Part shown: positions 17,187-63,460 of the stretch, piece after piece | Numbering within the stretch: the first letter of the stretch is position 1 | Layout of the letters: every line of letters begins with the position of its first letter | Assembly: GCA_012728375.1 (NCBI GenBank) | Contig: JAAYFF010000039.1 | Location: forward strand, 1 to 64,000 | DNA length: 64,000 nucleotides | Reading direction: 5' to 3' | Origin: Bacillota bacterium | Lineage (GTDB): Bacteria; Bacillota; Dethiobacteria; DTU022; UBA8154 | Position numbers and translations under genes: made by a program | The notes under the pieces: generated by a model | Seen by the model: the letters and a program-made list of their open reading frames with translations, nothing else | Told to the model about the DNA's origin: nothing | The model's database searches: none

Positions 17187-17330
17187 GCCCTCCTGCTGCG
17201 GCAAGAAGGCACATCTCATTCCCTCTGTACCTTCCGTCCCAGTCCTCTTCGGCTCCAGGCAGAATCAATATAGAAAGAAAAACCTCTTCTTGTATCTATC
17301 ACCGGGTGCAGGACTGAAGTTCCCACCCCA
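17187..17330 (-). promoter_or_regulatory. Possible structured leader of the pantothenate operon
   Basis: About 170 bases lie between the probable transcription start and the first pan gene. On the - strand CAGTCCT near the 5' end can pair with AGGACTG about 70 bases later. A 10 bp hairpin GCCTTCTTGC-CGCA-GCAGGAGGGC (17187-17210, including G-U pairs) sits 31 bases before the ATG and is followed by a T-rich stretch. An attenuator or pathway-sensing RNA is possible; 'pan' RNA motifs are known before panB in some Firmicutes, but a match was not established. Confidence 0.4.
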
Positions 17331-62881: not shown

Positions 62882-62910
62882 TTGACACGCTATCAATTTT
62901 GTTGTATATA
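62882..62910 (+). promoter_or_regulatory. Promoter of the structured leader and small membrane gene
   Basis: A perfect TTGACA (62882-62887), 17 bases and TATATA (62905-62910). Transcription would start near 62917 and run through a leader of about 200 bases. Confidence 0.75.
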
Positions 62911-62955
62911 TTGTACGAAGTTTAAAAATTTAATATCGTTACCCGGTCAAAGCTT

Positions 62956-63107
62956 TTATTGTGAAAACAATAATTGCGGAGTAAGTCATCTAAGTCCTTT
63001 TGGATATGATGTACTTATGTGAGAAGCGACTATCAGGGTGGATAGTTATTTTTGTGGCTATCCACTTTTTTATATTCAAAGGCTCACAAGTACAATCCAA
63101 AAGGAAG
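62956..63107 (+). promoter_or_regulatory. Long structured leader RNA of unknown class
   Basis: A first hairpin TTATTGT-GAAA-ACAATAA (62956-62973) has a GNRA tetraloop. A long second element follows (about 62995-63107): an 11 bp base stem TCCTTTTGGAT/ATCCAAAAGGA, then GTACTT/AAGTAC, GTGAG/CTCAC after a bulge, a large internal loop, and an apical 8 bp stem GTGGATAG/CTATCCAC. The base stem takes in AAAAGGA, part of the ribosome binding region. No known riboswitch class was recognised. Confidence 0.65.
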
Positions 63108-63119
63108 GGGGTGATTTAC

Positions 63120-63311
63120 TTGAAAAAAGTTATTGTACCGGCTGTTTGTGCGGTTCTGCTGGTTATTTTAATGAAATTCTCAGTTAATCCCCAAATTGAA
63201 ATAACCGGCATTATTTTTGCAGCAGCTATTGGTCTGTTGGTTGGTTCCTTAATAAACAAAATTATTTTTAAAAATAGAGAGGCAGAAAGTAACCATAAAG
63301 ATTCCATCTGA
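63120..63311 (+). CDS. Small two-segment membrane protein, unknown
   Basis: A 63-residue protein with two hydrophobic segments (about 4-19 and 27-46) and a charged C-terminus ending NREAESNHKDSI. The TTG at 63120 follows AGGGGGTGAT; longer forms would read through the leader hairpin and are rejected. Family unknown. It lies between ytaF and mutM, and has its own promoter and structured leader. Confidence 0.65.
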   Translation: MKKVIVPAVCAVLLVILMKFSVNPQIEITGIIFAAAIGLLVGSLINKIIFKNREAESNHKDSI

Positions 63312-63351
63312 AAAGTGTACGTGCAAAAAAAATCGATAACTGTAAACATCA

Positions 63352-63388
63352 ACTTAAAAGCTGCTTTTAACTGAAGCGGCTTTTAAGT
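63352..63388. terminator. Bidirectional terminator between the small membrane gene and mutM
   Basis: A 15 bp stem (63352-63366 with 63374-63388, one G-T pair) and seven-base loop between convergent genes. T tracts are short on both sides. Confidence 0.7.
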
Positions 63389-63460
63389 TTCCACGGTAAA
63401 AACTTTTGCAGAATTGCTGATATTTCGCTGTAATAACTAACAAGTAAAGAGCAAACCATT

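Follow-up and report, generated by a model that had tools for sequence, protein, structure and literature searches.

The leader and its gene

The window, the whole stretch of 64,000 nucleotides analyzed here, contains on its forward strand an open reading frame (63120..63311) that starts with TTG behind AAGGGGGTGA and, as the first-pass annotation had it, encodes a 63-residue membrane protein with two transmembrane (TM) segments. This protein and its family, recognized by the signature MKK-I-P...NP...G-G-G..N..F, have no match in Pfam, NCBIfam or the PDB. A weak profile match at L126 turned out to be a true AtpZ, and as the small proteins match no family, kinship with AtpZ is not claimed. Within the taxonomic class of the window, the two-TM family is found in only the three genomes that carry the RNA described below, apart from one borderline match. 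An inverted repeat between the gene and mutM (63351..63389, +) is likely a terminator.

Upstream, TTGACA (62882-62887) and TATATA (62905-62910), separated by a 17-nt spacer, form a putative promoter (62882..62910, +); the pair is present as annotated, with the caveat that the −10 box agrees with TATAAT at 4/6 positions only and that a promoter scan of the leader did not list it. The leader that follows has a minimum free energy of −76.5 kcal/mol (z = −9.0), and none of 200 shuffles was as stable. The long four-helix element described for it in the first-pass annotation does equal this minimum-energy fold, but the fold conserved in relatives is a different, local one (62944-63047). Elsewhere in the window, at 17230-17329 (−), a pan motif (RF01749) scores above its gathering score and represents a separate candidate regulatory RNA.

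A conserved RNA with compensatory changes

The leader is genuine and has relatives, with which it makes up a conserved RNA class. A DNA search of 60 related genomes revealed two true homologues (L002 and L003), both of which precede the same small protein family, and a covariance model built from the three leaders (R1) found further members phylum-wide. A DNA pattern scan of genome contigs gave 36 loci, 35 of them genuine; one pattern match on a Bacteroidetes contig (L092) was not recognized by the covariance model and is attributed to chance. With a second model (R2), 24 of the 63 Syntrophomonas-class genomes proved to carry the RNA, and 16 of the sites were new (a weak second row, L099:3031-3094, was excluded). 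Altogether, covariance models and the DNA pattern yielded 55 sites, all in Bacillota (Syntrophomonas, Syntrophothermus, Tissierellia, Sedimentibacter, Lutispora and others), which are not 55 independent cases, as some come from closely related MAGs. In a Lutispora MAG (L089), two copies stand in tandem (1864-1967 and 2094-2196) before one small two-TM protein. Another contig (L125, 1-280) starts within what seem to be the 3′ strand of P2 and the terminator; directly behind lies the gene of a small two-TM protein, a weak relative of the one in the window.

The conserved aptamer, defined by covariance model matches and pair counts, spans 62944..63047 (+) and comprises a P1 base, P1a, P1b and P2. 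In the class, the order from 5′ to 3′ is CGGUCAAA, P1a with its GAAA loop, P1b with CUAAG...UANG, UGAGA, a short linker and P2 with the loop nGGGUG. The 5′ side of lower P1, CGGUCA (62944..62949, +), is invariant or nearly so among 39 aligned members; its GGUCA pairs with UGAGA (63020..63024, +, placed by the model-based alignment), in the window through U62947-A63022, C62948-G63021 and A62949-U63020. The same alignment shows that P1 of the window leads into a three-way junction. From there rise P1a (62952..62977, +), the GAAA-capped hairpin that had already been annotated (tetraloop 62963-62966), in which 9/9 pairs have changed on both sides, and P1b (62981..63018, +), in which compensatory changes surround an invariant internal motif (CUAAG, 62990-62994; UAUG, 63005-63008). 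We take this motif to be the 11-nt receptor for GAAA tetraloops, into which the loop of P1a probably docks. The P2 hairpin (63028..63047, +) carries the loop AGGGUG (63035-63040), and it is here that the Na+-I model RF03071 aligns in relatives.

The covariance search proposed in the first-pass annotation thus returned homologous leaders with compensatory changes. In a model-based alignment of 39 sequences, 89.7% of the cells pair, compared to 79.2% in shuffled and 32-43% in slid alignments, and 22 of the 32 pairs show double-sided changes; cells with double changes number 166 versus 59.6 in shuffles, a value reached by 0/500 shuffles. Such an alignment leans towards its own structure, and anchor-based counts, which serve as an independent check, agree: P1a pair i9-j3 forms in 35/39 members with six pair types, P1b x1-y1 in 39/39 and P2 inner2 in 38/39. 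These two approaches were used because GAGA was out of place for some of the sequences in the MAFFT alignment (A4).

Riboswitches of the c-di-GMP-I type likewise place a GAAA tetraloop and an 11-nt-type receptor in neighboring hairpins. Indeed, one member (L055) scores 27.9 bits against RF01051, but the gathering score is 35, the match tracks the shared loop and receptor, and the ligand-binding junction sequence ACGCAAAGC, conserved in c-di-GMP-I, is absent. No other scanned member was matched, and both P2 and the associated genes speak for Na+. We therefore did not assign the RNA to RF01051, and a divergent c-di-GMP-I riboswitch appears extremely improbable. The pattern scan demanded both the tetraloop and the receptor motif, and for this reason their co-occurrence was judged on the model-found members only; among these the association is weak, and a joint loss of both elements is suggestive only.

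Pairings mutually exclusive with the aptamer

In the window, the P2 loop and 3′ strand are consumed by a terminator-like hairpin with a U tract (63035..63073, +). This layout recurs in 50/55 members: the 3′ strand of P2 can also form a hairpin with downstream sequence, and behind this hairpin there is usually a U tract. In 5/55, a clear overlap is absent. P2 and the intrinsic terminator are thus mutually exclusive, as in Na+-I riboswitches, whose platform is a terminator overlapping P2 (PMC9337991).

A second alternative pairing involves the ribosome-binding site (RBS). The perfect 11-bp stem noted previously is present (62995-63005 with 63095-63105), adjoins the Shine-Dalgarno sequence (63105-63113), and sits inside a 26-nt inverted repeat through which the 5′ arm of P1b (62980..63005, +) is able to pair with the ribosome-binding region (63095..63120, +). 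This helix sequesters the RBS in the minimum-energy fold. It had been read as a core element of the leader, a view that we had to revise: it belongs to a competing fold and not to the conserved aptamer, and the hairpin in the middle of the helix is terminator-like. In the nine loci with small two-TM proteins, pairing of P1b with the RBS has z values of −2.6 to −8.0 against mononucleotide shuffles. Matched P1b and RBS partners pair more strongly than mismatched ones (16 of 100,000 permutations, a statistic that ignores relatedness), although at L077, L095 and L096 the locus's own RBS does not come first in the ranking, and L077 and L095 do not favor it. Judged from these sequences, the pairing looks co-evolved across the nine loci, and we read the helix as a second, translational OFF state.

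A leader in which the RBS helix and the terminator act without any ligand, as a thermosensor or a simple attenuator for the small membrane protein, would also fit a minimum-energy fold that hides the RBS and the presence of a terminator-like hairpin. However, the nucleotides conserved over the 55 sites form a compact aptamer, with unpaired loops and junctions included. Moreover, many unrelated genes are preceded by this RNA and have no need of the RBS helix. Both points make this explanation very unlikely. Of the two kinds of switch envisaged in the first-pass annotation, the temperature-responsive one is therefore unlikely, whereas the ligand-responsive one is well supported: homologous leaders at 55 sites, their compensatory changes, the mutual exclusion of aptamer and terminator, and genes linked to Na+ all speak for it.

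Relation to the Na+-I riboswitch and its genes

The first-pass annotation had left the leader unassigned. As far as Rfam is concerned, this is correct: no scanned member reaches any Rfam 15 gathering score, the leader in the window gave chance matches only, and cmscan did not report it as Sodium even at E ≤ 5. Nevertheless, the core can be assigned to the kind of the Na+-I riboswitch (DUF1646 motif, RF03071), of which 308 examples are known (PMC9337991). The lower P1 pattern cGGU-N...N-AG(A/G) is common to both: the window and nearly all members have CGGUC...GAGA where Na+-I has cGGUUG...CAAGA, so that CGGUCA matches cGGUUG and UGAGA is the counterpart of CAAGA or CAAGG. A short linker, a P2 with a 6-nt nGGGUG loop, and a terminator built from the 3′ strand of P2 are likewise shared. 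True Na+-I loci read cGGUUG...CAAGA-linker-GGCUUCURGGGUGGGAAGCC and the variant reads CGGUCA...UGAGA-linker-GGCUUACUGGGGUGGGUAGCC or -GACUAUCAGGGUGGAUAGCC. The differences are a C-G instead of a U-A as the second P1 pair, an often bulged P2 and the architecture of P1, which is one stem in Na+-I but in the variant branches at a three-way junction and carries the GAAA tetraloop and the 11-nt receptor.

Searches in both directions connect the two RNAs. RF03071 matches at variant sites are in register, if sub-threshold (18-23 bits in relatives, with no scanned member reaching the gathering score of 40.5 bits), and in a whole-genome search at E ≤ 1, 7 of the 14 matches were variant sites. A model confined to the 3′ module of true Na+-I, run over 256 kb, had variant P2s as its top 14 matches. 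Conversely, the variant model gave only six matches in 60 kb of loci that included Na+-I loci, and all six were Na+-I sites. A single-stem P1 was found in one member only (L122), which has 60 nt, a simple P1 (UCAAAGA/UCUUUGA) and a variant P2, and which bridges the variant to Na+-I. Since no scanned member reaches the gathering score and P1 of the window is not a single stem, we did not file the variant as a Na+-I member. RF03071 matches in the window's class (L023-L028) were weak and were set aside, and so were L131 and L133, where the conserved P2 is missing or the position lies within a coding sequence.

The genes downstream were counted by hand over the 55 sites. The targets were NhaD-type (19), NhaA (3), NhaC-type (1), DUF1646 (2), Na+/Ca2+ exchanger (1), Na+/Pi (1), a Na+-translocating decarboxylase (1), V-ATPase (1), KamA/Eam (4), DapB (1), TrkA (3), small two-TM proteins (10, at nine loci) and other or unclear genes (8). 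MadB is among the genes behind the RNA. The NhaD label is based on Pfam CitMHS/ArsB matches of the members scanned and the likeness of the rest; KamA at L067 is a 52-residue fragment called by its likeness to L075. Some targets (TrkA, CstA, NfeD, FapA, TRAP, CrcB) are not Na+-specific. The class as a whole is associated with Na+ and osmolyte genes; the target in the window is the two-TM protein without family match. At all four KamA/Eam sites (L067, L075, L120 and L122), the variant is followed by a c-di-AMP riboswitch, and this tandem is likely a two-input gate. Reported Na+-I targets include DapB, DUF1646, oxaloacetate decarboxylase, ATP synthase and antiporter genes, and a tandem Na+-I/c-di-AMP arrangement is reported in Dehalobacter (PMC9337991). 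The genes behind the variant are largely this Na+-I repertoire, with DUF1646, dapB, decarboxylase pumps and tandem c-di-AMP switches at aminomutase genes in common.

Conservation, covariation, mutually exclusive pairings, the core match and the gene associations, all derived from sequence analysis, argue that the leader is most probably a Na+-responsive ON switch and a structural variant of the Na+-I riboswitch. As the RNA precedes sodium pumps, osmolyte genes and tiny membrane proteins, it probably switches on sodium-stress genes, and the two-TM protein may have a role in Na+ stress. In our model, lower P1 (GGUCA...UGAGA) and the P2 loop (AGGGUG) would form the ion-binding core, steadied by docking of the P1a GAAA loop in the P1b receptor. 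Without Na+, the 3′ strand of P2 would pair downstream to give the intrinsic terminator, and in RNA that is read through, P1b could shut off translation by pairing with the RBS. In the presence of Na+, P1, P1b and P2 would be held, so that no terminator forms, the RBS stays free, and the 63-residue protein is made.

There is a small chance that the RNA has only its core in common with Na+-I and constitutes an ion riboswitch class of its own, or an aptamer with two inputs, with the junction as a second sensing site or the cause of a shifted specificity. It is also imaginable that a riboswitch on the same scaffold changed its specificity away from Na+ and binds another alkali ion (Li+) or a small molecule at the junction. 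The junction adds conserved nucleotides foreign to Na+-I (CAAA after GGU, GG after P1a, UGAGA), not all downstream genes are Na+ genes, and in nhaA-I, a similar class, specificity is known to have shifted between Na+ and Li+ (PMC9646797). That class (nhaA-I/Li+-I with Na+-II variants, RF03057) has a general two-stem layout similar to Na+-I, and its targets include nhaA, nhaD and DUF1646 (PMC9646797). Such a change of ligand is nonetheless unlikely: DUF1646, the Na+-translocating decarboxylase, V-ATPase, NhaD-type and NhaA genes and the tandem with c-di-AMP-type switches at KamA/Eam match the Na+-I repertoire, and matches of the nhaA-I model never fell on variant sites (0/11 in seven genomes).

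As a Na+-I variant, the RNA group appears to be previously unlisted and to keep the Na+-I core on a larger scaffold; we found no description of it in the open-access papers searched, a scope that does not support a claim of priority. It would carry the range of a rare riboswitch kind into further lineages, among them the Syntrophomonas class; of 10 genomes checked there, none had a Rfam Na+-I match above the cut-off. The RNA also marks the two-TM family as probably Na+-regulated. Apparently the same ion-binding core exists on two scaffolds with an intermediate form, which makes it possible to test directly how peripheral tertiary contacts tune an aptamer for a monovalent ion.

Two further observations concern nhaD-type loci. 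At L117 (1501-1598, −), the same core with a differently built P1, without GAAA loop and receptor, lies upstream of an nhaD-type gene. Furthermore, an orphan family of one-TM proteins with about 34-36 residues (MEELT.QVKKELFRT..W...) is encoded directly 3′ of the riboswitch, often before an nhaD-type gene, at L073 (6547-6648), L068 (4269-4370), L070 (3307-3408) and, about 70 bases past the riboswitch, L112.
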